Below, piece after piece: positions 16,617 to 29,260 of a DNA stretch of 64,000 nucleotides (positions are counted from its first letter, which is position 1; each line of letters opens with the position of its first letter). The position numbers were made by a program, and so were the translations under genes. Under the pieces are notes generated by a model. The model was not told the origin of the DNA, ran no database searches, and was given only the letters and a program-made list of their open reading frames with translations. Origin of the DNA: Hyphomicrobium sp. LHD-15 (lineage in GTDB: Bacteria; Pseudomonadota; Alphaproteobacteria; Rhizobiales; Hyphomicrobiaceae); the NCBI RefSeq assembly GCF_031157355.1, contig NZ_JAVIFT010000002.1, positions 124,001 to 188,000 of the forward strand, read 5' to 3'.

Positions 16617-17276
16617 TCAGATCACGATCGTGGTTCTCAACTGACCAAGCTCCGTCGTCATGCGGGTGGTCACGGCCTCGCCCCTGTCGGCCAGGCTGGT
16701 CATTTCCTGCGCAACCACGCCGAAGCCGGCGCCGTGCTCCATTGCACGGGCGGCTTCGATCCGCGCGTTGAGGGCGAGGAGACGCAATGTCTTCAACGTG
16801 GTGCGAATGTCGTCGGCGGCGATGTCGACCTTGTTGAGCGCGATCGCGCCGCCCGCAAGGCGCTCGGCGAGGCGAGACAAGGCACCGGCCTCGAGAATGA
16901 TGCCGTCGAGAAAGGCAGGGGCGTTGGTCTCGGGATCGATCGCAGACGAAGCGCCGCCGGTCTCGTGAACGTAGAGCACGCGGCCATCGCGGTGATGAAT
17001 ACGGTAGCTCACCTGCCAGTTTCCGCCGCGTGCCAGCGCTTCCCCGACCGCGGTATCAACCTTCGGCAGATCCTCCTTGAGGATCAACGACGCAAAGCCG
17101 GTGCGATCCCGGATGAAGGAGTCGCGATCGTAGCCGGTCAAACGCGAAAAGCCTTCCGACAGCCACAGCATCGCGTAGTCGTTACTGTTCTGACCGCGAT
17201 ACATGAACCCATCGATGCGCACACCGATGCTCTTCAGAAAGTCGTCGGCGGAAAATGCCCCTGCGTGTTCCGTCAT
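16617..17276 (-). CDS. PAS-domain protein with a miniature chemoreceptor signalling hairpin
   Basis: A 219-residue soluble protein. Residues about 20-130 form a PAS/PAC fold (NDYAMLWLSEGFSRLTGYDR, then WQVSYRIHHRDGRVLYVHET). The C-terminal 70 residues contain the hallmark of a methyl-accepting chemotaxis protein tip, LRLLALNARIEAARAMEHG followed by FGVVAQEMTSLADR, but the adjoining coiled-coil arms are very short. No membrane segment or HAMP domain is present. Standard receptors need long helices to build signalling arrays, so this may be an adaptor-like sensor or a decayed receptor. It lies alone, tail to tail with the HxlR gene. Confidence 0.78.
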   Translation of the reverse strand: MTEHAGAFSADDFLKSIGVRIDGFMYRGQNSNDYAMLWLSEGFSRLTGYDRDSFIRDRTGFASLILKEDLPKVDTAVGEALARGGNWQVSYRIHHRDGRVLYVHETGGASSAIDPETNAPAFLDGIILEAGALSRLAERLAGGAIALNKVDIAADDIRTTLKTLRLLALNARIEAARAMEHGAGFGVVAQEMTSLADRGEAVTTRMTTELGQLRTTIVI

Positions 17277-17510
17277 CTCTCAGCCCGCTCCGAAATCGTC
17301 CGGGACCGCACTACGGTCCGGATTGAAAAGGGTTCTCTTATTTGAGCCGATTCGTGAACGGAAAGCGCGGGGCGGATTGCTCCCGAGCCATCATTTTCAT
17401 GCCCGGGGTTTCATCAGCTGGACAGCTTTTGAGCAGGCGGGAACGTGAGAACCTGTTCGATGCAGCGATCAAAACCCACTGCGAGGCAGCGGCTCCGGGC
17501 CCGACAATTT

Positions 17511-17540
17511 GGGCATGGCGAGATGGGCCGCGCCATGCCC
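17511..17540 (-). terminator. Hairpin after the GlsB/YeaQ-like gene
   Basis: GGGCATGGCG (17511-17520) pairs perfectly with CGCCATGCCC (17531-17540). On the minus strand it follows the stop at 17560 by 20 bases and is followed by AAATTG. The remaining bases of 17277-17510 hold no gene that I can support. Confidence 0.6.
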
Positions 17541-17559
17541 GTGCTTTACTGCTTCCGCG

Positions 17560-17814
17560 TCAGCGCGAAAGGAGCCTGACCACGAAGATCACAATGATGG
17601 CGCCGATGGTCGCGTTGATAATGTCGCCCAATATTCCGCCGCCGATATAGATGCCGATCCTTGGCAGCAGCCAACCCGCAACGACGGCACCGACGATACC
17701 GAGAACGATATCCCCGATCAGGCCGTAACCGCTGCCGCCTTTCATGATCTGGCCAGCCAGCCAGCCCGCGATGGCTCCGATAATGAGCCAAATGATGATG
17801 CCTTCCAAAGCCAT
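17560..17814 (-). CDS. GlsB/YeaQ/YmgE family stress-response membrane protein
   Basis: An 84-residue integral membrane protein. The ATG at 17814 follows GAGGGGA at about 5 bases. Three glycine-rich membrane segments are visible: IIIWLIIGAIAGWLAGQIM, LIGDIVLGIVGAVVAGWLLP and GDIINATIGAIIVIFVVRLL. The family (transglycosylase-associated protein in older naming) is stress-induced in enterobacteria, and its biochemical role is unknown. A single-gene unit. Confidence 0.9.
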   Translation of the reverse strand: MALEGIIIWLIIGAIAGWLAGQIMKGGSGYGLIGDIVLGIVGAVVAGWLLPRIGIYIGGGILGDIINATIGAIIVIFVVRLLSR

Positions 17815-18155
17815 ATGTGTCCCCTCTGGTTTTTGCGGACGCAAGACAGGCGCTTTAGTCGCTCAATCATCTCTGCCTGCCTGAGCATTGAAGCGCGCAG
17901 TGCAGACCCAACGAACGTACTTGAGTTCGCAAACTCCCGAAACACCACTGCTGTGCGGTTGCACAATAGGAGAGCGGCGCGCTGTTTCGGCCGGTTGTAG
18001 AGGCGGCCCCGTCCTGGTGACGAGTTGTCTATTCCCATTGAAAAGGCGCATGAGCGGAACCGGAAAAGGGATTCCCCCATCGGGATTTTCCGTATTCGGA
18101 CGACACACGCTCTGCACAAGGCTGATGGACGATTCTCGCCGCCATTCAAGCTCGA
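17815..18155. other. Gap upstream of the RND efflux operon
   Basis: About 340 bases between the divergent GlsB-like gene and the efflux adaptor gene. It must hold the promoters of both. I see no TetR-like regulator gene and no clear palindromic operator in it. Confidence 0.4.
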
Positions 18156-19355
18156 ATGACGGGGCAACGCTCAATGATGATCACTCCGAGATACATCGCA
18201 AACATACACCGCACGCGACTGTTGATGTCGCTCTCCGCGGCGGCTCTCGCTGCGGGGTCCCTGGTTTTCATGGCGCCCGACGGCGCCGCGCAGGGGGCAG
18301 GAGGCCCACCCGCACCATCGGTGGTCGTCGAGACGGTGCAGTTCACCGACCTCAAAGGTGCGACGACTTTCTCCGGGCGGATCGAGGCAGTCGACAAGAT
18401 CGAGCTTCGTACGCGCGTCTCGGGCCTGATCACCAAGCGCGACTTCCGCGAGGGCGGCGAGGTGACAAAGGGGCAGTTGCTGTTCGAGATCGATCGCCGG
18501 CCGTACGAGATCGCGCTGGCGCAGGCCGAAGCCAATCTCGCAAGCTCGCAGGCCGCATTGGAAGATGCGACGGACGCCTACAAGCGTACACAAGAGCTGG
18601 TGACCCGGCAGGTTTCGTCCGGCGCCTCGCTGAGCTCGGTCAAATCGCAGCTTGCACAAGCAAATGCCAAGGTCGCCTACGACCAGGCGCAAGTGCAGCA
18701 GGCCAAACTCAATCTCGAATACACGCAGATCCGGGCTGAGATCTCGGGGCGCATCGGACGCGCGGCTCATGCGGTTGGCGACTACGTGAATGAAGCGAGC
18801 ACGCCGCTCGCCACGCTGATCTCGCAGGAAACCGTCTACGCGACCTTCTCGGTGCCCCGTCCCGATCTCGCCAATCTCGTGAAGGGCAAGGACGGCGCTT
18901 ACCAGGCCGACGTGGAACTGCGCTTCGGAGACGGAGAACTCTATTCGCACGCCGGCAAGATCGCGTTCGTCGACGTCGAGGCGAACTCCGCCACCAACAC
19001 CGTCATCGTGCGGGCGGAGGTTCCCAATCCCGATCGGGCGTTGCTGCCGCAAGAACTCATCGACGCCACGATCGTCGATTCCCACGCGACGAAGACGCTG
19101 GTGGTTTCTCAATCCGCACTGCTGCTCGATCAGCTCGGAAGCTATGTGCTGACCGTGGACGATAGCAACAAGGTCGCGATCCGCCGGTTCGAGACGGGCA
19201 GCTATCGCGGCTCGTTCGTCACCGTGAAATCCGGTCTTGCCGAAGGCGACCGCGTCATCATCAGCGGCCATCTCAAGGCACAGCCGGGCATGGTCGTCGA
19301 TCCGCAGTCCGCTCCGATCGAAGTCAGCAACTCTTCGGGTAACCCCACGCCATGA
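18156..19355 (+). CDS. RND efflux periplasmic adaptor subunit
   Basis: A 399-residue membrane fusion protein that links an inner-membrane RND pump to an outer-membrane channel. Alternative ATGs lie at 18174 and 18177 and would leave a better signal peptide (RLLMSLSAAALAAGSLVFMA). Lipoyl halves are at about 70-110 (IELRTRVSGLITKRDFREGG) and 190-215 (NLEYTQIRAEISGRIGRA), with the alpha-hairpin between and a beta-barrel and membrane-proximal domain after. The sequence resembles MexE/AcrA-type adaptors. It overlaps the pump gene by four bases (ATGA). No TolC-type channel gene is beside it, so the complex probably borrows one from elsewhere. Confidence 0.93.
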   Translation: MTGQRSMMITPRYIANIHRTRLLMSLSAAALAAGSLVFMAPDGAAQGAGGPPAPSVVVETVQFTDLKGATTFSGRIEAVDKIELRTRVSGLITKRDFREGGEVTKGQLLFEIDRRPYEIALAQAEANLASSQAALEDATDAYKRTQELVTRQVSSGASLSSVKSQLAQANAKVAYDQAQVQQAKLNLEYTQIRAEISGRIGRAAHAVGDYVNEASTPLATLISQETVYATFSVPRPDLANLVKGKDGAYQADVELRFGDGELYSHAGKIAFVDVEANSATNTVIVRAEVPNPDRALLPQELIDATIVDSHATKTLVVSQSALLLDQLGSYVLTVDDSNKVAIRRFETGSYRGSFVTVKSGLAEGDRVIISGHLKAQPGMVVDPQSAPIEVSNSSGNPTP

Positions 19356-22300
19356 TCTTCAACGTCTTCATCGATCGGCCGCGGCTTGCGATGGTGATCT
19401 CGATCATCATCACGCTCGCAGGCCTCATGTCGGCGGTCGGCATTCCGGTCGCCCAGTATCCGAACATCGCCGCGCCGACCGTGCATGTCGGCGCGACGTA
19501 TCCCGGCGCCGACGCGGCCACGATCAGCACGGCCATCGCGCAGCCGATCGAGAACGCCGTCAACGGCGTGCCGGGCATGCGCTACATGCAGTCGACGTCG
19601 ACCAACGACGGCGGCTATTCGCTCACGATCACGTTCGATCAGGGCATCGATGCCGACACTGCCTCGATGAACGTGTCGAACCGCGTCAACATGGTGCTGG
19701 GACGGCTGCCGCAGGAGGTCCGCAACACCGGCCTCACGGTGGGAGCCGGTTCCTCCGATCTGCTTCAGATCATGTCGTTCTACTCCGACAATCCCGAGCA
19801 CGATCAGCTGTTCCTCAGCACCTTCGTCACGCTCAACATCCTCGACGACTTGAAGCGCGTTCCCGGCGTCGGCGAGGCCGCCGTGATGGGCTCGCAGGAC
19901 TATGCCATGAGGATCTGGCTCGATCCTCAAAAGCTGATCAACTATGGCCTCTCGGCCAATGACGTCGCCCAGGCGGTGCAGGCGCAGAACGTGCAGGCTC
20001 CGGCCGGTCGCATCGGCGCGGCGCCCATCGTGTCGGACGATCAGCGTCTCGAACTTGCGATTTCCTCCACGGGCCTTCTGTCGACGCCCGAGGAATTCGG
20101 CAACATCGTGTTGCGCAGCCACGAGAATGGTTCGACGACACGGCTCCGGGATGTCGCGCGGGTCGAGGTCAGGGCGTCCTCCTACAGCGCGAGCTCGCAG
20201 TTCGACGGAAAGCCTGCTGCTCCCGTTGCCATCAATCTCGCATCCGGCGCCAATGCGGTCAGTGTCGCGGACGCGGTTGCGCAGAAGCTCGAGGACTTGA
20301 AACCCCGCCTTCCCGAAGGCGTGAAATTCGCGTTCATCTACGATACGTCGGACTTCGTCTCGGCGATGATCGACCGGGCTATTGAAACGCTGTTCGAAGC
20401 GTTCGTACTCGTCGCGATCGTCGTCTACGTGTTTCTCGGTCGGCTCAGGCCGTCGCTGATTCCGCTGATCGCCGTTCCCGTTTCGATCATCGGCGCGTTC
20501 CTCATACTGGTGCCGCTCGGCTACTCGGCGAACACGATCTCGCTGCTCGCTCTCGTCCTTGCCATCGGCATCGTCGTCGACGACTCGATCATCGTGGTCG
20601 AGAACGTCGAGCGCGAGATGGAGGAGAACCCGGGCCTTTCCGCAGCAGATGCCACGCGCAAAGCCATGGGCCAGATCATCGGGCCGATCGTGGCCGTGAC
20701 GCTGGTTCTGCTGTCCGTGTTCGTGCCCGTCGCGTTCCTGCCCGGCAGCACCGGCATCCTGTTCCAGCAGTTCGCCGCGACGATCTCGGCCGCGATGGTG
20801 TTCTCGGCCATCAACGCCTTGACACTGACACCGGCGCTCTGCGCGCTTCTGCTCAAGCCGCGCAGCGAGGACCACAAGCCCAACGCGGTCCAGGCATTCA
20901 TCGAGAAATCGGTCGATCGCTATGCGGGCGTCATCGAAAAGATCGCAGGCCGGTCGGTCGCGGGTCTCGTTTCGGTGGCGATCCTCGGCTTGTTTGCCGG
21001 ATACATCTTCTGGGACACGCCGAAGGGCTTCCTGCCGCAAGAAGACAAGGGCTACCTGCTCGTCGTTTCGACGCTTCCGCCGGCCGCTTCTCTCAACCGC
21101 ACGGAAGCGGCGGTGGCGAAGGTCATCGAGATCGTGAAGAAGGATCCGGCCGTCGAAAGCACGCTGTCGATCAACGGTCTCGACTTTCTGACCGGCGGTT
21201 CGGCATCGAATTCCGGCATCATGTTCGTGCGGCTCAAGCCCTACGAGGAGCGCCGAGATCCATCGCTACAAGCCGACGATACGGCGATGCGGCTGTTCAT
21301 GGCTCTGTCGACGCTTTCGGAGGGAACCTTCGTCGCGCTCAACCCGCCTTCGCTTCCGGGCGCAGGCTCGGTCGGCGGCTTCGAGTACATCCTCGAAGGC
21401 CTCGAAGGGAAAACCCCTGCAGATCTTGCCGCTGCTGCACGCGCACTCAGCGTTGCCGCTCTACAGAAGCCGGAGTTGACGCAGGTGTTCTCGGCCGCTG
21501 AAGCGCAGGTGCCGCAGATCAAGCTCGAGATCGATCGCGAACGGGCGCGTCTGCTCGGGCTCGAAGTCGGCGACATCTATAGCGAGCTGCAGTCGACGCT
21601 CGGCGGCCGCTACATCGCCGACTTCAGCAAGTTCGGCCGGACGTGGACCGTGCAGTTGCAGGCCGATGCACCGCACCGCTCGAACCTCGACGATCTCTCG
21701 CGTATCAGCGTAAAGAACCGCGAGGGCAAGATGGTGCCGCTGTCGTTGGTTGCGAAGGCGACATTGGGCGTCGGACCAAGTTCGCTCTCGCGCTACAACA
21801 ACTATCCGTCGGTGACGGTGCGCGGATCGGCGGCTCCGAACATCGGTGACAGCCGCGCGCTCGAAGCGATGGAAGAGCTTTCGGCCGAAACGCTCCCGCC
21901 TGGCTTCAAGTTCGAGTGGACCGGGCAGGCGCTGGAGGAAAAACTGTCTGCCGCACAGACACCCTTGGTCATTACGCTCGCGCTTCTGTTCGCGTTCTTC
22001 CTGCTGGTCGGTCTTTACGAGAGCTGGTCGATGCCGCTGGTGGCGCTGCTGCCTGTCGTCGTCGCGGTGCTTGGTGCCATGCTCGGGCTGTTCGTTACGC
22101 AATCGAGCCTGCTGATCTATAGCGAGATCGGCATCATCGTGCTGATCGCGCTCGCGGCGAAGAACTCGATCCTGATGACGCAGTTCTTCATCGACCAGCG
22201 GCAAGCCGGGAAGTCCATCGTCGAGGCCGCAGTCGCAGGTGCGCGGCAGCGCATCCGCCCCGTCATGATGACGAGCGTCGCGTTCATCGCGGCGCTGGTG

Positions 22301-22507
22301 CCGCTCCTCGTTGCCAAGGGGCCGGGAGAGGCCAGCATGTATGCGGTGGCGCTGCCGGTGTTCGCGGGCATGCTGCTCGCGTCCATCGTCGGGGTGTTCT
22401 TCATTCCGGTGATGTACGTCGCGGTCCAGCGGGTGAGGGAGCGCTTCCGGCCAGCCGCCGGCAAGGCGGAGCAGCCGCCCGATGAGGCGCTGATCGCCGG
22501 CGAATGA
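19352..22507 (+). CDS. RND multidrug efflux permease, HAE1 family
   Basis: A 1051-residue inner-membrane proton antiporter of the AcrB/MexF type, full length. The N-terminus MIFNVFIDRPRLAMVISIII is the first membrane helix. TM4 carries the paired aspartates required for proton relay (LAIGIVVDDSIIVVEN). The duplicated architecture with two periplasmic loops is intact, and the second membrane half includes GIIVLIALAAKNSILM. Substrates cannot be read from sequence. It is the second gene of the adaptor-pump operon and ends in a strong terminator. Confidence 0.96.
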   Translation: MIFNVFIDRPRLAMVISIIITLAGLMSAVGIPVAQYPNIAAPTVHVGATYPGADAATISTAIAQPIENAVNGVPGMRYMQSTSTNDGGYSLTITFDQGIDADTASMNVSNRVNMVLGRLPQEVRNTGLTVGAGSSDLLQIMSFYSDNPEHDQLFLSTFVTLNILDDLKRVPGVGEAAVMGSQDYAMRIWLDPQKLINYGLSANDVAQAVQAQNVQAPAGRIGAAPIVSDDQRLELAISSTGLLSTPEEFGNIVLRSHENGSTTRLRDVARVEVRASSYSASSQFDGKPAAPVAINLASGANAVSVADAVAQKLEDLKPRLPEGVKFAFIYDTSDFVSAMIDRAIETLFEAFVLVAIVVYVFLGRLRPSLIPLIAVPVSIIGAFLILVPLGYSANTISLLALVLAIGIVVDDSIIVVENVEREMEENPGLSAADATRKAMGQIIGPIVAVTLVLLSVFVPVAFLPGSTGILFQQFAATISAAMVFSAINALTLTPALCALLLKPRSEDHKPNAVQAFIEKSVDRYAGVIEKIAGRSVAGLVSVAILGLFAGYIFWDTPKGFLPQEDKGYLLVVSTLPPAASLNRTEAAVAKVIEIVKKDPAVESTLSINGLDFLTGGSASNSGIMFVRLKPYEERRDPSLQADDTAMRLFMALSTLSEGTFVALNPPSLPGAGSVGGFEYILEGLEGKTPADLAAAARALSVAALQKPELTQVFSAAEAQVPQIKLEIDRERARLLGLEVGDIYSELQSTLGGRYIADFSKFGRTWTVQLQADAPHRSNLDDLSRISVKNREGKMVPLSLVAKATLGVGPSSLSRYNNYPSVTVRGSAAPNIGDSRALEAMEELSAETLPPGFKFEWTGQALEEKLSAAQTPLVITLALLFAFFLLVGLYESWSMPLVALLPVVVAVLGAMLGLFVTQSSLLIYSEIGIIVLIALAAKNSILMTQFFIDQRQAGKSIVEAAVAGARQRIRPVMMTSVAFIAALVPLLVAKGPGEASMYAVALPVFAGMLLASIVGVFFIPVMYVAVQRVRERFRPAAGKAEQPPDEALIAGE

Positions 22508-22513
22508 AAAAAG

Positions 22514-22545
22514 GGGCGCCCAATCGAACGGGCGCCCTTGCTTTT
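22514..22545 (+). terminator. Rho-independent terminator of the efflux operon
   Basis: GGGCGCCC (22514-22521) pairs with GGGCGCCC (22530-22537) and is followed by TTGCTTTT. It sits 7 bases after the pump stop and isolates the efflux operon from the downstream exported-protein cluster. Confidence 0.88.
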
Positions 22546-22596
22546 CACGCTTTATAAATTGCATCAGCATTCGTCTTTATTTTATTGAATCTCCAT

Positions 22597-22610
22597 GGAA
22601 ATTAATTTCC
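22597..22610. promoter_or_regulatory. Perfect AT-rich palindrome, candidate operator
   Basis: GGAAATTAATTTCC is a perfect 14-base palindrome in an AT-rich stretch (22546-22640) that contrasts with the GC-rich surroundings. It lies 79 bases before the first gene of the exported-protein cluster, a suitable place for the promoter and its control site. Confidence 0.45.
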
Positions 22611-22688
22611 CATAAACCGAATAAGATTGGAATTCCCCCATATGCAGGTGAATCGCGCGCGGCTGCGTGCGCGCCCTTGGGGAAGACA

Positions 22689-23177
22689 ATGGAAAACAAC
22701 AAATCGACGGCCTATGCGTTCATGATCATGCTCGCCGGCCTTGCCGTGATCGGCCACTACGGCCGCGCGTCCGCCGAGGTCGCCCCGCCGAGCGCGTACG
22801 AAAGCGTTATGCCGGGCCAAGCGCCGATGCAGCGCGCACCTGGATACGGCCCGCAATACGGCCTGATCCAGACCGCCGTCGTCGGCGTTGCGCAGATGGA
22901 CGGCAACGGTGGTTTCGGTCGCCCAGCCGCAATGCCGGTGTTCCAGATCATCCAGCTGCAGCCCGCCACTGCGCCGGCCCAGGCAAGCTACGAAGCTCCG
23001 CACGGCGCCCCGCAGGCTCCCGTTGCATCTGCCGAGCCTTCCGTCCCGCAGGGCATGACCGTCACGCCTCCGGCCGCTCAGATGGCTGGCGCGCTGTGCG
23101 ACATCAAAGGTATCCGCGTGCTGACCCAAAACGCTGAGTCCTGCGCGATGGCAGGCGGTCAGACCGCAGCGCAGTGA
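22689..23177 (+). CDS. Small exported protein with C-terminal C-x14-C motif
   Basis: A 162-residue protein I do not recognise. The ATG at 22689 follows GGGGAAG closely; a TTG at 22677 is possible. An N-terminal hydrophobic segment (YAFMIMLAGLAVIGHYGRAS) looks like a signal peptide. The middle is Pro/Ala/Gln-rich and probably unstructured (MPGQAPMQRAPGYGPQYG). The last 30 residues contain C-x7-LT-x5-C-x2-AGG (CDIKGIRVLTQNAESCAMAGG), a pattern repeated with identical spacing in the protein encoded at 24446. It is the first gene of the exported cluster, and the shared motif is the reason to group it there. Confidence 0.72.
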   Translation: MENNKSTAYAFMIMLAGLAVIGHYGRASAEVAPPSAYESVMPGQAPMQRAPGYGPQYGLIQTAVVGVAQMDGNGGFGRPAAMPVFQIIQLQPATAPAQASYEAPHGAPQAPVASAEPSVPQGMTVTPPAAQMAGALCDIKGIRVLTQNAESCAMAGGQTAAQ

Positions 23178-23195
23178 CCTCTGCTTTCGCGCTCT

Positions 23196-23341
23196 GATTG
23201 TCTCTATTAGGATGATTTTCACTACTCCGCGGCACAACTCGTTGCGGAGCCAAGGGTGAGGGGTTGGTCGCGTCCCTAGGTTCCATCGTCATGGCCCGTG
23301 TCGTGGACGCGGTGCTTGTTCTGGAACGAGGGGATAGACCC
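23196..23341 (+). repeat. 5' leader, copy A, duplicated before the next gene
   Basis: This 146-base leader matches 24302-24445 in ordered blocks: GATTGTC, TTAGGA, CGGCACAA, GTTGCGGAGCC, GGTCGCGT, CTGGAACGAG and GATAGACC before a GTG start. CTCCGC and GCGGAG in this copy can pair into a stem. The match shows the coding gene was duplicated with its leader. The blocks may be promoter or RNA control elements. Confidence 0.7.
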
Positions 23342-24142
23342 GTGACATTTGTAAAGCTCACCATCCGATCGACGGCTGCAGCTCTCGCGCTGGCCGGCGC
23401 GGCTCTCGCTACTCCTGCCGCTGCCACCATTTCGACGCCGTTCGGCGGCGTCAGCGTCGGCGGCTTCGGAATCTCGACGCCCTTCGGCGGCGTCTCCACG
23501 CCGTTCTTCGGAATTGGCAACGGCGGCCCTGGCGCCGGCGGTTACTACACCGGCTTCGGCATTGGCGGCCCTGGCTACTTCGGGATTGACGGCGGCGCGC
23601 CCAAGTATTCCGACGTCAACCGCGCCGGCTTTGGGCTGCCTTGCGGCTTCATCGGTCCTTGCGCTCCCAGCCCGTTCGGATTCGGCCTCAACAGCGCGCA
23701 GAACGTCGGCATCTCGACACCGTTCGGTGGTGTCAACGTGGGCGGCTTCGGCTTCGGGGCTATGCCGGCCTGGGGACTCAGTGAGGAGCAGGCGCTGCGC
23801 ATCTCGACGCCGTGGGGTGGCGCGTATGGCCCGGGCTTCGGTTTTAATGCCGGGCCGTTTAGCGGCAACTTCGGCGGCTGGGGTCTCAACAGCGCGCAGA
23901 ACGTCGGCATCTCTACGCCGTTCGGCGGCTTCTACGGCCCCGGCTTCGGTTTTAATGCCGGGCCGTTCAGCGGCAACTTCGGCGGCTGGGGTCTCAACAG
24001 TGCGCAGAACGTCGGCCTGACGACAGGCCAGTGGGGACCGAGCTACGGCATCTCGACGCCGTTCGGCGGCATCAACGCCGGTGGCTTCGGTTTCGGCGGA
24101 CAGCCGCAGATCATGCCGATCTACATGCCTTATCCGTACTGA
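23342..24142 (+). CDS. Exported glycine-rich ISTPFGG-repeat protein 1
   Basis: A 266-residue protein of no family I recognise. The GTG at 23342 is supported by GAGGGG 8 bases upstream and by the same arrangement at the paralogue. A signal peptide covers about 1-26 (STAAALALAGAALATPAAA). The mature chain is Gly/Phe/Ser-rich and built from ISTP(F/W)GG motifs followed by GPGFGFNAGPFSGNFGGWG units; a 36-residue unit is repeated in tandem (nt 23834-24049). Charged residues are very scarce. It ends QPQIMPIYMPYPY, a tail related to those of its neighbours. It may form an extracellular fibre, matrix or surface layer; that is inference from composition and export. Confidence 0.8.
   Translation: MTFVKLTIRSTAAALALAGAALATPAAATISTPFGGVSVGGFGISTPFGGVSTPFFGIGNGGPGAGGYYTGFGIGGPGYFGIDGGAPKYSDVNRAGFGLPCGFIGPCAPSPFGFGLNSAQNVGISTPFGGVNVGGFGFGAMPAWGLSEEQALRISTPWGGAYGPGFGFNAGPFSGNFGGWGLNSAQNVGISTPFGGFYGPGFGFNAGPFSGNFGGWGLNSAQNVGLTTGQWGPSYGISTPFGGINAGGFGFGGQPQIMPIYMPYPY
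23834..24049 (+). repeat. Two tandem copies of a 108-base unit inside the ISTPFGG gene
   Basis: The first 75 bases of the units starting at 23834 and 23942 differ at two positions. A third, closely similar unit with the same 108-base period starts at 24965 in the paralogue. The period is 36 codons, so copy number can change without breaking the frame. Confidence 0.85.
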
Positions 24143-24185
24143 GGATCGCTCTCGGCCAAAGGCCGAAAGCAAGTGCTCATAGGAG

Positions 24186-24215
24186 GGCCGTGCGCATCCG
24201 CGCGCGGCCTTTTTC
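24186..24215 (+). terminator. Rho-independent terminator after ISTPFGG gene 1
   Basis: GGCCG-T-GCGC and GCGC-G-CGGCC pair around ATCC, followed by TTTTT. It lies 44 bases after the stop and indicates that the two paralogues are separately terminated. Confidence 0.8.
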
Positions 24216-24301
24216 GTTTCTCACGCTGCGTTATCCGAGGCGCAACTCATGCAGGCGCCAACGCCCACCGGAACGAGTCCGTATTGATACGTACAATTCG
24301 A

Positions 24302-24445
24302 GATTGTCAGCGTTAGGAGGATATTTACCAGTCCCCGGCACAAAGTGTTGCGGAGCCGAGGAAGAGTTCGTGGTCGCGTACCTGGGTTCGTTAAGTCATA
24401 GCTCGCGTCATCGACGCGGAGCGCTCTGGAACGAGGGATAGACCA
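24302..24445 (+). repeat. 5' leader, copy B
   Basis: Second copy of the leader at 23196-23341, in the same order and almost the same length (144 against 146 bases). The ribosome binding site and start region (GGAACGAGGGATAGACC then GTG) is nearly identical. The 24143-24445 gap otherwise holds the terminator of gene 1 and no gene. Confidence 0.7.
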
Positions 24446-25336
24446 GTGACATCCGTTAAGATCTACGTGCAGTCGGCAGCAGCAGCTCTCGCGCTCGCCG
24501 GCGCCGCTCTCATCACGCCCGCCTCTGCCACCATCCGCACGCCCGCTGGCACCATCTCGACGCCGCTCTTCGGCATCAGCGGCCAGCAGGACTTCAGCGT
24601 CCGGACGCCATGGGGTGGCGTTTCACTTCCCGGCTTCGGCATCTCGACCCCGTTCGGTGGCGTTTCGACCCCCTTCTTCGGTCTCGGTAACGGCGGCCCC
24701 GGCGCCGGCGGTTACTACACCGGCCTGGGCCTGGGCGATCAGCAGGCTCTTTCGATCAGCACGCCGTTCGGCGGCTTCTCGGGTCCTGGCTTCGGCTTCG
24801 GCGCATCCGTCAATTTCGGCCTCGGCGGCCCCGGCTTCCCGCCGGGCGTGGTTCCCTTCTTCGGCCTCAATGGCCATCAGAACCTCGGCATCTCCACCCC
24901 GTGGGGCGGTATCTCCGGTCCCGGCTTCGGCATCTCGACGCCGTGGGGCGGCTTCTCCGGTCCCGGTTTCGGTTTTAATGCCGGGCCGTTCAGCGGCAAC
25001 TTCGGCGGCTGGGGTCTCAACGGCGCACAGAACGTCGGCATCTCGACGCCGTGGGGCGGCATCTCCGGTCCCGGCTTCGGAATTTCGTCCCCGTGGGGCG
25101 GCGTCTCGACTCCGTTCTTCGGCTTGAACGGACAGCCTGGTCAGCCGCAGATCATCCCCGTCATGGTTCCGGTTCCGGTTCCGATGCAGGGTGGCCCGGC
25201 CCAGGGCGGCGCTCAGCCGGTCCAGTGCATGATCAACGCCGTGCCGGCGCTGACCAAGAGCGTGGATGATTGCGAGAAGGCCGGCGGCGACGTTCCGGCG
25301 ACCCGCACCTCCGCCGTCCAGGAAGCCAAGAAGTAA
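24446..25336 (+). CDS. Exported glycine-rich ISTP(F/W)GG-repeat protein 2
   Basis: A 296-residue paralogue of the preceding protein with the same GTG start and leader. The signal peptide (SAAAALALAGAALITPASA) is nearly the same. The mature chain carries many ISTPFGG/ISTPWGG motifs joined by SGPGFG-type links. Unlike protein 1 it ends in a Pro/Val/Met stretch (QPQIIPVMVPVPVPM) and then a C-terminal module with C-x7-LT-x5-C-x2-AGG, shared with the protein at 22689. Arginines in the mature chain are confined to RTPAG, RTPWGG and RTSAV contexts. A surface or matrix role is inferred. Confidence 0.8.
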   Translation: MTSVKIYVQSAAAALALAGAALITPASATIRTPAGTISTPLFGISGQQDFSVRTPWGGVSLPGFGISTPFGGVSTPFFGLGNGGPGAGGYYTGLGLGDQQALSISTPFGGFSGPGFGFGASVNFGLGGPGFPPGVVPFFGLNGHQNLGISTPWGGISGPGFGISTPWGGFSGPGFGFNAGPFSGNFGGWGLNGAQNVGISTPWGGISGPGFGISSPWGGVSTPFFGLNGQPGQPQIIPVMVPVPVPMQGGPAQGGAQPVQCMINAVPALTKSVDDCEKAGGDVPATRTSAVQEAKK

Positions 25337-25345
25337 GATCTACGT

Positions 25346-25380
25346 GAGGTGCCGGTTCGAACGAGCCGGCACCTCTCTCT
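25346..25380 (+). terminator. Hairpin terminator after ISTPFGG gene 2
   Basis: GAGGTGCCGG (25346-25355) pairs perfectly with CCGGCACCTC (25366-25375), followed by TCTCTT. A strong stem, but with a mixed rather than pure T-tract. Confidence 0.7.
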
Positions 25381-25530
25381 TCCGCCCCATCGCACCCAAT
25401 CACATTCCCAAAGCATCTCTCCTCGTTCATGGCGCGCATGCCGCACGCCCTGAGCCCAGCCAGCGATTCCGACGTTCGATGCGCTCGATATCGAGCAAGC
25501 GCAGGCGCCGTAGGTTCCAGGAATAGGAAA

Positions 25531-26640
25531 ATGAGCATGTCTGTCATTCGTTCTGTCGTCACAGCGCTTGGCGCCGCGTGCGTCATTGCGCTCGCCATGG
25601 CCCCTGCCGTGCTCGCCGCGCCCAAGAAAACGCATCTCCTGGCCATGGGCGGTTGCCCGCCCTGGAAAGTCATCGAAGGCGATCCGGAGGCAACCCGCCA
25701 AATGAAGGAATCCTGCCAGAACGACGTCAATGCGATCGTGGCAGGGTTCAAGAAGGCGCTCGCGCTGGACGACGCAAACATCATGACGCGTGTCGACGAA
25801 CAGGCGACGGCTCAAGGCGTTCGGAAAGCGTTTGTGGAGCTGGATGAACGCGAGAAGAGCGGCGACCGCGTCATCATCTACATGAACTTCCACGGCGGAA
25901 ACATCGACGCAAACTACAACGGCTACGACATCGAAGACGAAGTGCTTGCGATGTACACGGCGGTGGAGCCGAAAGACTTCCGGCAAGCTACCATCAACGG
26001 CGACTGGCTGACGATGAAAGCCGTGCGCGATCTCACCAACGAGATCGAAGCCGAAGAAATCGTGCTCATCTTCGAGGTTTGCGAAGTTGCGGCCGGTTAC
26101 AAGAACTTCCGGTACAATTTCAGCCGGCGCAATCAGCGCGACTGGAAGGGCCGCGAAGCCGTCATCTTCACCTCGCGCGGCGATCAGGCTGCGACCTTCA
26201 ACGAGGACGGCACGCTGGCGCTGTTCACCGAACTCTTTTCAAAAGGGCTTGAGACGGCAAAGAGCGGCAACTTGCGCGACATCTTCGAGCAGGCCGCAAT
26301 CGACACGCATCGCTCGCGGCGCGCAACCTGCATGAAGGAAGAAAACCTCGAGAACCTGTTCGACAATCGCTGGGTCTACCTCGACGCCTGCACGCAGCTT
26401 CCCTCGGCGTTCGATCCCTATGGTCTGCTCGACGACATCCATGTGGGCGGCGACACCATCGCCTCGCGCTGGCACGACCTCAAGGATCGCAAGCCGCCGC
26501 AGAAAACTCCGGCGCGCGAAGAAGATCCGTTCGCTTGGGCAAAGGACTACATGGGCGGGCAGACGAGCGGAGCCGTCAACGCCGCTCCCCCGATGCAGAT
26601 GCCGACCATGCAGCCCGCGGGCCCGTACTACCCCTACTGA
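25531..26640 (+). CDS. Exported caspase-like (peptidase C14) protease
   Basis: A 369-residue caspase-fold protein. The ATG at 25531 follows AGGAATAGGAAA; starting here gives a clean signal peptide (SVVTALGAACVIALAMAPAVLA) with likely cleavage near residue 29-30. The catalytic dyad is visible: H121 in VIIYMNFHGGN and C184 in EIVLIFEVCEVAAG, each at the end of a hydrophobic strand as in metacaspases and orthocaspases. The mature chain has five cysteines (42, 62, 184, 267, 287), so two disulfides plus a free nucleophile are possible. The C-terminal tail is Pro/Met-rich and ends PAGPYYPY, similar to the end of ISTPFGG protein 1. An exported caspase beside two repeat proteins suggests it processes them or controls their display; that is inference. 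Confidence 0.82.
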   Translation: MSMSVIRSVVTALGAACVIALAMAPAVLAAPKKTHLLAMGGCPPWKVIEGDPEATRQMKESCQNDVNAIVAGFKKALALDDANIMTRVDEQATAQGVRKAFVELDEREKSGDRVIIYMNFHGGNIDANYNGYDIEDEVLAMYTAVEPKDFRQATINGDWLTMKAVRDLTNEIEAEEIVLIFEVCEVAAGYKNFRYNFSRRNQRDWKGREAVIFTSRGDQAATFNEDGTLALFTELFSKGLETAKSGNLRDIFEQAAIDTHRSRRATCMKEENLENLFDNRWVYLDACTQLPSAFDPYGLLDDIHVGGDTIASRWHDLKDRKPPQKTPAREEDPFAWAKDYMGGQTSGAVNAAPPMQMPTMQPAGPYYPY

Positions 26641-26665
26641 GGTTCGGAAACGAACGAAACGAAAG

Positions 26666-26700
26666 GGGCCGCGCGCAACTGCTCGCGGCCCTCATGCTTT
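26666..26700 (+). terminator. Terminator after the caspase-like gene
   Basis: GGGCCGCG (26666-26673) pairs with CGCGGCCC (26684-26691), followed by TCATGCTTT. It closes the exported-protein cluster. Confidence 0.75.
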
Positions 26701-27105
26701 CCGCTCAATCTTTCAGCATTGGTGCAGCTTGCGGGTGCGCGCGGCACGATGCGCAGCTCAAGGGATGGGTTTCACGACGCAATCGTAGCGGGCCTGCAAC
26801 AGGCGGCGTTCTGTTTTCGCGCTTCGCCGCCGCTTGCCAAGGTCTCGCCCGAATGTACTCGTGTGGTCGGAGTGGGGCCGGTCTTCGCGCGAACAACTGC
26901 CACGTATGTGGGAGTCTCCTTTTTGCGGGGTAGGGAGACTGCAAGTATCAATGTGCGGAGAGGCGCTTCCTCTTCCACACGCGCGTTTTCCGGCCCCATC
27001 TTCTTATCCGAGCCGATGTCTCTCAAACCGCACGGCTCGTGTGCTCGCATCCTGGAAACAAACCCACGCTGGAAAACAGCCGCGTATCGATCGTCGTTGC
27101 TTTAT
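26701..27105. other. Gap after the exported cluster
   Basis: About 400 bases in which I see no gene. A dyad AGTCTCC (26913-26919) / GGAGACT (26934-26940) encloses TTTTTGCGGGG; it could be part of the end of the leftward acyltransferase transcript. Confidence 0.4.
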
Positions 27106-28140
27106 CTATGCCGGAGTAGGCGCCCACTTCGCTGCCGGGACACTTACTGCTCTGCGCGTTGTCGAGATCCATCGCGCGATCGGTCGTTCCATGTACCGAT
27201 ACGAGAGCCACCCTATAACGGGCATAGCTATCAGCATTGCGGCGACCGTTGCCAATCCCGGTACTGGGATCTCGGCCATGATGAGACCGTAAACAATCGG
27301 CCAGTGCCACAGATACGTAGAATAGCTTGCGTCGCCCATCGCTACGAGCGGCCGCGGCGCTTTCCACTTCGGCTCAAGCGAAATCATACCGGCGACGAGT
27401 ATAGCGGCAGGGAAGCCCAGGTAGTAAGGGCGCAGCCCCGCCTTAGCCCATGTATCGCCCATCATCAGGTATGTACCGATGAGCAGCCCTGCAACGCCAA
27501 TCGCAACGGTCGCGCCCGCCGGCACTTTCCATCCTCTATCGAAGTAGAGGTAAACGACAATCCCAAACAGGAAGTCGAGTACTACGGGGAACAGGATTAT
27601 GCCGTAGTTGAAGCCTGTCAGTTGGGCCCACACGAGGATGATGCCGTATGTGAGCGCGAAACTGCCGAGTGCCAAGCGAAGAAACTTCGGTGGAGTGATC
27701 AAGATAAGGGCTGCGATGAGAGCATAGAACCAAACTTCAAACCGCAACGTCCATGCGACCGAGACAATCGGGTTGTCGCCGGACAGCGTTATGACTTCCC
27801 AAAGAGAGAACGGCTTTCCCCAGGAGATCGAGCCGGTGATGTAGAAGGCCAACGGTATCGATGCCGCGAGCACGATCCAGTACAGGGGGAATATTCTGGC
27901 CACACGGTTGAATCCGAAGTCTGCTGCACCGAGCAGTCTACCGTTGCGCCCGGATGCTGCGACAGCCGACTTTGAAATGACGTAGCCCGAGATCACGAAA
28001 AACAGATCTACTCCGGTAAATCCGGCCGCGAAGGCATACTGGCTTATTTCTGGAAGCCACATGCCCCATTGCGTCGTCGCGTGACACAGCACCACGAGCA
28101 TGGCTGCTATGCCACGGAGCATCTGAATGTTTTTTGACAT
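27106..28140 (-). CDS. Acyltransferase family 3 membrane protein (OafA-like)
   Basis: A 344-residue multi-pass membrane O-acyltransferase of the type that acetylates or succinylates cell-surface sugars. The ATG at 28140 follows GAGGGGG at 8 bases. It begins with the family motif IQMLRGIAAMLVVLCHATTQ, which contains the conserved His, followed by GVDLFFVISGYVI, RIFPLYW and WTLRFEVWFYA. Roughly ten membrane segments are visible. No SGNH domain is attached. No polysaccharide cluster is adjacent, so the target is unknown. It stands alone and is convergent with the exported-protein cluster. Confidence 0.9.
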   Translation of the reverse strand: MSKNIQMLRGIAAMLVVLCHATTQWGMWLPEISQYAFAAGFTGVDLFFVISGYVISKSAVAASGRNGRLLGAADFGFNRVARIFPLYWIVLAASIPLAFYITGSISWGKPFSLWEVITLSGDNPIVSVAWTLRFEVWFYALIAALILITPPKFLRLALGSFALTYGIILVWAQLTGFNYGIILFPVVLDFLFGIVVYLYFDRGWKVPAGATVAIGVAGLLIGTYLMMGDTWAKAGLRPYYLGFPAAILVAGMISLEPKWKAPRPLVAMGDASYSTYLWHWPIVYGLIMAEIPVPGLATVAAMLIAMPVIGWLSYRYMERPIARWISTTRRAVSVPAAKWAPTPA

Positions 28141-28276
28141 CGCTGGCCCCCTCAACAGGGGTAGGTGAGTCGGCCGCGATCACGCAAAACAATCCTTGGT
28201 CTGACTATTGTTCAGGATGTGGAAAAGCACATCTCTGAATTTAGACCTTCGAGAGCTCCGCGAGTTGCGCACGCGC

Positions 28277-29260
28277 TCAGCGGACGTCACGCATCGTCAC
28301 GACCACGCTGCCGACCTTGCGTTCTGAATCGACGCGGGCATGGGCCTCCGAGATCCGGTCGAACGCAAAGCGGCTGTCGATGACGGGTTTGTAAGCGCCT
28401 GTCTCGCACAGTCTCTTTAGCTCGATGATATCCTCGGCCCGCTCCGGCGCAGGACCGCCGGCCACCTTTAATCCGCTCGTCATGGATTGGAACGGCGCCT
28501 TGAGCAGGTCGCCAAGCTCGCCGACCGCCAACAACAACCGGCCATTCTTGTTGAGTGCATTTCGGCAGCGCACGAAGGACACGTTCCCGACCGTGTCGAG
28601 AATGATGTCCCAACGCGTGCCACTTCTCGCAAAGTCCGCCGCCTTGTAGTCGATCACCGCATCCGCGCCGAGCGCGCGGGCGAGATTTGCATTGGCGGCC
28701 GAGCAAACGCCGGTGACATGCGCCCCGAAATGCCGGGCCAACTGCACGGCCGCCGAGCCGACCGCGCCGGACGCACCGTTGACCAGAACGCGTTCGCCCC
28801 GCTGCACCTTGCCGACGTCGCGCAGAAAATGAAGCGCCGTTGTGGCGCCGAACGAGATCGCGGCTGCCTCCTCGAACGTGACACCGACTGGTACCAACGC
28901 CATTACGCCGTCCTCGGGCATGGCCTTGAGTTCCGCATGGCATCCCATCCCCGCGCCGCTGAATGCGAACACCTGATCGCCCGGGCGATATCGCGTGACA
29001 TTGGCGCCAACCGCCTCGACGACGCCTGAGAGCTCCGTGCCGAGGATCTGATTGCGCGGCCCGGTCAAGCCAAGGAACACGCGTGCCAACAGCGAGAACC
29101 CTGAGGGGAACCTCGCACCGCGCACGCGCGCATCGCCCGAAGAAACGGTGGTCGCGACGACACGGATGAGCACTTCGTCCGGTTTCGCGACGGGATCAGG
29201 AACGTCGAGAAGTTGCACCACATCCGGCCCGCCGTAGGCCTTGCAGACGGCTGCTTTCAT
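28277..29260 (-). CDS. Medium-chain NAD(P)-dependent alcohol dehydrogenase / quinone reductase-like protein
   Basis: A 327-residue MDR-family reductase. The N-terminal GroES-like fold is at about 1-120 (MKAAVCKAYGGPDVVQLLDV) and the Rossmann fold has VLVNGASGAVGSAAVQLARH. The structural and catalytic zinc cysteines of true alcohol dehydrogenases are absent, which points to a zeta-crystallin-type quinone or enone reductase. It is a single gene, 137 bases upstream of the acyltransferase on the same strand. Substrate unknown. Confidence 0.85.
   Translation of the reverse strand: MKAAVCKAYGGPDVVQLLDVPDPVAKPDEVLIRVVATTVSSGDARVRGARFPSGFSLLARVFLGLTGPRNQILGTELSGVVEAVGANVTRYRPGDQVFAFSGAGMGCHAELKAMPEDGVMALVPVGVTFEEAAAISFGATTALHFLRDVGKVQRGERVLVNGASGAVGSAAVQLARHFGAHVTGVCSAANANLARALGADAVIDYKAADFARSGTRWDIILDTVGNVSFVRCRNALNKNGRLLLAVGELGDLLKAPFQSMTSGLKVAGGPAPERAEDIIELKRLCETGAYKPVIDSRFAFDRISEAHARVDSERKVGSVVVTMRDVR

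Follow-up and report, generated by a model that had tools for sequence, protein, structure and literature searches.

The window analysed here, a stretch of 64,000 nucleotides from Hyphomicrobium sp. LHD-15 (contig NZ_JAVIFT010000002.1, positions 124,001 to 188,000), contains a cluster of four consecutive + strand genes, which lie 3′ of an MFP-RND pump pair (18225-22507). They encode a small protein (P0001), two repeat proteins (P0002 and P0003) and a probable caspase-fold protein (P0004). A sequence-only reading of the window had described four rightward genes for exported proteins around a caspase-like protease, and the four genes are present as described (Table 1). The start of the first pump gene, for the MFP-like adaptor, was chosen by a heuristic gene caller.

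Signal peptides had been assigned to all four products. Inspected by eye, each has a Sec-like N-terminus with an AxA-type site. A crude hydrophobicity/AxA rule agrees and flags all four cluster proteins, yet it is unspecific, flagging 9 of the 12 window genes examined. The signal-peptide-like N-termini suggest that P0001-P0004 are probably exported. Each of the four proteins has at least one cysteine pair. The C-x14-C protein of the sequence-only reading is P0001 (C137-x14-C152); P0002 is without a C-x14-C tail and has an internal C-x5-C (C101-C107, window 23642-23662).

None of the four proteins had a Pfam family at E≤1, and PHROGs gave weak matches for P0001 and P0004 only. A defence system was considered and rejected: none of the four matched PADLOC at E≤1.

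Table 1. Features of the pump pair and the four-gene cluster, in window coordinates
Feature	Position	Strand	Remarks and basis
MFP-like periplasmic adaptor gene of RND pump	18225..19355	+	first gene of the conserved block; 77% identity to L012:12106-13224, same order; MFP name is a sequence reading
RND transporter gene, 1051 aa	19352..22507	+	88% match, in G001 alone
Hairpin between RND gene and cluster	22514..22537	.	T-run on minus strand
P0001, 162 aa, exported-looking, Ala/Gly/Pro/Gln-rich, C-terminal C-x14-C module	22689..23177	+	orthologue P0012, 64% identity
C137-x14-C152 tail of P0001	23097..23144	+	common to repeat protein 2; shuffle test, profile search
Leader of repeat gene 1, conserved	23204..23341	+	76% identity to leader 2, 68% to G001 leader; one of the sequences building model R1
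P0002, repeat protein 1, 266 aa, 6 ISTP[FW]GG, one C-x5-C	23342..24142	+	motif count
Terminator-like hairpin with T5 after repeat gene 1	24181..24214	+	hairpin scan
Leader of repeat gene 2, conserved	24308..24445	+	78% identity to G001 leader
P0003, repeat protein 2, 296 aa, 5 ISTP[FW]GG, C-x14-C tail	24446..25336	+	orthologue P0006
C261-x14-C276 tail of P0003	25226..25273	+	similar to P0001 tail
Strong hairpin after repeat gene 2, no clear T-run	25346..25375	+	similar hairpin at same place in G001
P0004, exported-looking protein of probable caspase fold, 369 aa	25531..26640	+	fold model and profile alignment
His121 codon of P0004	25891..25893	+	aligned with His of GHG in Peptidase_C14-type proteins
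Cys184 codon of P0004	26080..26082	+	aligned with conserved Cys of Peptidase_C14-type proteins
Hairpin after protease gene, no T-run	26665..26692	+	hairpin scan

The block in a second genome

Among the eight genomes of the genus only one other, G001, has the protease, a repeat gene and P0001 (two carriers in eight). In G001 the order MFP, RND, P0001, repeat gene, protease is kept, and the surroundings differ: of the 44 predicted window genes that remain, a single one has a match in the 18-kb stretch of G001, and this gene, for a small membrane protein, lies on the opposite side there. The 88% match of the RND gene was found only in G001; the best matches in the six other genomes of the genus were 57-59% and the paralogue in the same genome 58%. 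G001 has a single repeat gene, whose product P0006 is, by its tail, the orthologue of P0003.

At synonymous sites, the orthologue pairs of the block differ by 42-63%. The ratios of non-synonymous to synonymous substitution rates (dN/dS), calculated from one pair each at dS 0.6-1.4, were 0.10 for the pump, 0.18 for P0001, 0.40 for the repeat gene and 0.19 for the protease, whose pair P0004/P0005 has a dS of 0.93. On this one pair, the protease is under purifying selection. The gene set is real, conserved and narrowly distributed.

Carriage by a mobile element was rejected on searches with P0004 and P0001, the repeat proteins not being among the queries. P0004 was compared with 72,556 plasmid and 50,697 phage records and matched none of them, and none of its 42 pattern matches in IMG/VR was a relative; P0001 had no match in the plasmid records. 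A scan of GTDB contigs gave 45 pattern matches with one relative, of the G001 type, and as two short peptide patterns were used, its silence says little.

A conserved leader of ~135 nt precedes each repeat gene; the G001 copy lies at 8106-8240 of L012. Leader 2 and the G001 leader have 78% identity, while two other intergenic stretches of the block, taken whole, reach 55% and 60%; this comparison favours the leader, the limits of which were set after the alignment was seen. Rfam gave no match at E≤1 in 17000-29000. In 60 genomes a covariance model of the leader (R1) found its three building copies and one weak match (E 0.046) in G034, which is of another genus and has no TP[FW]GG in the locus (L089). 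The leader of repeat gene 1 and the G001 leader folded better than their shuffles (z -2.65 and -2.06), the leader of repeat gene 2 did not (z 0.68). The covariation term was unfavourable (+1.13), and in the three sequences two-sided changes were seen in 4 of 42 pairs. A proven structured RNA is not claimed for the leader.

The description of the set as lying between two strong terminators proved incomplete. The upstream hairpin has its T-run on the minus strand, the downstream hairpin is without a T-run, and the set itself contains additional hairpins. Because hairpins follow both repeat genes and each of these has its own leader, the four genes are probably transcribed as two or three units, not one.

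The caspase-fold protein and its clade

A Foldseek search with the AlphaFold model of P0004 returned 62 PDB matches at E≤1e-3, led by the MALT1 caspase domain 3v4o (E 4.5e-7); 7qp0 (1.1e-6) and GSU0716 3bij (1.1e-5) were among the others. In the best 50 of the 62 matches, which have 10-19% identity, MALT1, metacaspases, caspases and GSU0716 stand at the top. The hhalign profile alignment (prob 98.4, E 8.2e-15) places H121 on the His of GHG and C184 on the conserved Cys, and E182 is aligned with the family Asp two residues before the Cys, so that an acidic residue is retained. The Asp two before the catalytic Cys has a role in the S1 pocket.

No Pfam model of any kind matched P0004 at E≤1, Peptidase_C14 (PF00656) included, and the family is assigned by fold and profile. 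Orthocaspases have a p20 but no p10 subunit; no p10 match was seen in P0004, for which divergence could equally account. NCBIfam matches were sub-threshold, the best being EACC1-associated caspase (NF047832) with 16 bits against a cut-off of 140, and searching the PDB by sequence alone gave a weak match to metacaspase-4 (E 0.076). The earlier label 'peptidase C14-like' therefore stands by fold and profile-profile comparison and not by any Pfam model for P0004 itself. The His/Cys dyad had been called intact, and both residues align with the Peptidase_C14-type pair in a protein for which the caspase fold is supported. A dyad out of place on the caspase fold, which would have counted against the sequence-only reading, was thus not seen at the level of alignment. 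P0004 is a caspase-fold protein that is probably exported, and its aligned dyad is probably active.

P0004 resembles the bacterial orthocaspases (Peptidase_C14) in its modelled fold and in the aligned His and Cys, and its relative P0007 scores above the Pfam cut-off. It differs from them in several respects: P0004, P0005 and P0008-P0011 are without a Pfam match, P0004 has C-E-V-A in place of the C-H-S-G type motif, and the proteins share a CP[PV]W motif and four invariant cysteines. The signal-peptide-like N-terminus and the Pro/Met/Tyr-rich C-terminal tail of P0004 are further differences. MALT1 paracaspase and metacaspases are the best fold matches of the model; in contrast to MALT1, P0004 has no Pfam domain and hence no Ig domain was seen, a test that a diverged Ig domain would escape. 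Bacterial caspase homologues had been taken to be mostly cytoplasmic. This is too strong, since the part of PMC3501461 consulted counts, among 398 metacaspases without another domain, 46 with a single N-terminal helix as a possible signal peptide.

The CP[PV]W clade comprises seven proteins: P0004, P0005 (G001), P0007 and P0008-P0011, the last four from one genus. In a tree, a branch with support 100/99 separates the seven from five generic C14-type proteins; four of these five were scanned with Pfam, and all four passed. With P0004 alone as query, 4 of 60 relatives matched; the matches in G044 and G039 are generic caspase proteins. A profile of P0004 and its orthologue matched 12 of 397 genomes of the order, with CP[PV]W in the matched frame in six of the 12 (the own genome, G238, G331, G377, G428 and G450). 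Among the six loci without the motif G044 was checked by Pfam (Peptidase_C14) and G039 by reading. The family search gave matches in 3 of 103 genomes, the match in G004 being a generic Peptidase_C14 protein. In the class the seven-sequence profile matched 22 of 385 genomes, and among the 30 loci CP[PV]W was found only in the own one. In the family of G238, only G238 itself matched (1 of 30 genomes).

All seven clade members, including those without a dyad, keep C42, C62, C267 and C287. The His/Cys dyad is kept in three (P0004, P0005 and P0007); P0008-P0011 read Pro and Asn at the dyad positions. The dyad-less proteins (L017-L020, L031-L034) adjoin a long protein in which GGDEF/EAL-like sequence was recognized by reading. 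Pseudo-orthocaspases, forms without the dyad, are described as common in Rhizobiales in the sections of PMC6426788 that were available, and P0008-P0011 resemble them in this. The common dyads given there are YS, YA, FS, QC and HA, whereas the dyad-less proteins here have Pro and Asn, and P0004 keeps His/Cys.

A rival reading gives P0004 a non-catalytic role. The ancestral job of this exported clade could be binding by a disulphide-braced caspase fold, with the dyad of P0004 a remnant and the protein a scaffold for the repeat proteins. The invariance of the four cysteines in seven of seven proteins with a dyad in only three, the C-E-V-A motif and the frequency of pseudo-orthocaspases in the order (PMC6426788, in the part consulted) all agree with such a role. 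However, the stretches that contain H121 and C184 (residues 119-124 and 174-186) are identical between P0004 and P0005 at the synonymous divergence given above, and P0007 retains GHG and DTC. We regard a non-catalytic P0004 as unlikely.

Repeat proteins and the shared cysteine tail

The counts of ISTP[FW]GG, six in P0002 and five in P0003, bear out the description of two glycine-rich paralogues. TP[FW]GG is found six times in each protein, compared with at most one in 5000 composition shuffles of each. The two genes are paralogous and have stretches of 107 and 151 nt in common at 84% and 88%. Gly, Phe, Pro, Ser, Thr and Ala account for about two thirds of the sequence, and charged residues number 9 in P0002 and 15 in P0003.

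Among 60 related genomes, relatives of the repeat proteins were found in the own genome and in G001 only. Across the order 2 of 297 genomes matched: the own genome and one further match (L065, E 5e-4), which from its sequence appears to be a substrate-binding protein. As apparently exported, low-charge proteins with Gly-rich repeats, P0002 and P0003 are similar to the RTX/curli-like glycine-rich repeat exoproteins of bacteria. They differ from these and from other named repeat exoproteins in matching no curated family of Pfam, NCBIfam or PHROGs at E≤1. We know of no named repeat of the ISTP[FW]GG kind.

P0001 and P0003 end in a common 21-residue C-x14-C module, in which eight residues (C, I, L, T, C, A, G, G) are invariant over four sequences. 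In four comparisons of P0001-type with P0003-type tails, none of 5000 shuffles reached the alignment score. When a profile built on the four tails was run against 102 family genomes, E<1e-16 was reached only by P0001, P0003 and their two orthologues; weak partial matches were seen in two further genomes (E 0.007 and 0.064). Because the tail is private to them at a convincing score in these genomes, P0001 and P0003 look functionally linked. This shared tail is the strongest link within the cluster, and the protease is not part of it. The segment TRTSAVQEAKK of the P0003 tail is identical in P0006, although the repeat bodies differ.

A candidate substrate and competing explanations

The reading that we prefer, with a probability of about 0.38, is that of a caspase-fold protease of the envelope, inherited together with a low-complexity polymer that carries a disulphide tail and that the protease possibly trims. 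It is built on the gene content, the co-inheritance in one comparison, the private shared tail, the caspase fold of the model, the aligned dyad and the purifying selection. In this co-inherited envelope block the MFP-RND pump pair would be accompanied by exported proteins of three kinds: the small C-x14-C protein, one or two repeat proteins of the Gly/Phe/Pro type, and the protease. The protease would be a single-domain caspase fold braced by two probable disulphides. The repeat proteins would most likely remain without a fold or associate with one another, either within the envelope or at the cell surface, and the C-x14-C tail would most likely be a disulphide-closed module that docks or cross-links P0001 and P0003. 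P0004 would most likely cut after a basic residue, the most plausible partner site being the conserved TR|TS (R287-T288) in the P0003 tail, which adjoins the C-x14-C module.

The arginines of mature repeat protein 2 had been noted to occur only as RTP or RTS beside the repeat motif, where they would make discrete cut sites. All three (R31, R53 and R287) are indeed followed by TP or TS. Their position beside the motif holds for R53, which stands in a full motif (VRTPWGG); the motif is degenerate at R31 (IRTPAG), and R287 is in the C-terminal tail. The RTP sites as a conserved cut-site design were ruled out by P0006, in which the counterparts of R31 and R53 are missing, one motif has a Lys and the single Arg is that of the tail TRTS. 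The only conserved candidate Arg site is thus TRTS in the tail. That P0004 trims the repeat protein is a fair guess, to be given a chance of about one in three.

Shorter products can also be imagined. The protease could cut the repeat proteins to short peptides, which the adjacent RND pump would move outwards. The RND-MFP pair travels with the block, and RND pumps can take substrates from the periplasm. However, the repeats have very few basic residues, mostly not conserved, and no outer-membrane channel gene was noticed in the block, although no family search was aimed at one. Peptide release is very improbable.

Many observations weigh against the preferred reading. Some concern the models and the family: the AlphaFold model of P0004 is of modest quality (predicted local distance difference test score, pLDDT, 61; predicted template modelling score, pTM, 0.63), one of the seven clade members (P0007, 24.3 versus 21.4 bits) passes the Pfam caspase cut-off, and the dyad is absent in four of the seven. 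The model of P0003 has a pLDDT of 30 and no fold, from an alignment of three sequences; this fits disorder, but the thin alignment may be the sole cause. Others concern the partnership. P0002 is without RTP/RTS, and P0006 is without the two RTP sites. Co-transcription of all four genes as one unit is made less likely by the hairpins inside the set and by the leader that each repeat gene has of its own. As the block is carried by two genomes only, its co-inheritance is one comparison. Co-occurrence of protease and repeat genes, which the sequence-only reading proposed to look for, does not extend to the clade: the five relatives outside both carriers have no TP[FW]GG match in the 19.5 kb around each locus. 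Homologues of the protease lying mainly apart from repeat genes was an outcome that this reading had itself named as speaking against it.

The ends of the proteins offered a hint of a connection. A C-terminal extension of ~65 residues is present in the protease of both block carriers and absent from the other five clade members. The end of P0005 is similar to the ends of repeat proteins, with shuffle counts of 10, 22 and 26 in 5000 for three comparisons of hand-picked segments. The end of P0004 does not do so significantly (292 of 5000 shuffles for P0002, 3133 of 5000 for P0003), a further point against the preferred reading. As the likeness is present in P0005 but not in P0004 itself, it is treated as a hint.

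Several of these observations would also fit neighbours that are not partners. The protease could be a general quality-control or stress protease of the envelope, the block being co-inherited via the RND pump or by chance, and the repeat proteins an independent envelope or surface polymer. The five clade loci without repeats, the own leader and hairpin of each repeat gene, the linkage in two genomes only and the exclusion of the protease from the private tail can all be understood in this way. It is less easily reconciled with the conservation of the entire block between flanks that differ, or with the C-terminal protease extension, which is found only where the repeats are (2 of 7). We consider mere neighbourhood almost as probable as the preferred reading.

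A more ambitious form of the preferred reading is a dedicated self-processing envelope polymer system. In such a system a low-complexity Gly/Phe polymer and a small partner protein would be joined by the private disulphide tail and trimmed by the exported protease, with a pump of their own and a cluster-specific mRNA leader that controls each polymer gene. All of this together is improbable.

In the parts of the open PMC literature that were covered, no account of the CP[PV]W clade or of its pairing with repeat proteins was found. Already on record, in the portions consulted, are bacterial caspase homologues with a possible signal peptide (PMC3501461) and dyad-less forms in Rhizobiales (PMC6426788). 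The clade, in four members of which the dyad was lost while the cysteine frame was kept, makes a clear case for a caspase fold turned to non-proteolytic use. To our knowledge, hardly any substrates of exported bacterial caspase homologues are known. Here an apparently exported caspase homologue that is probably active sits with few candidate partners and one conserved candidate cut site, and because both sets are so small, the substrate question becomes directly testable with purified proteins.

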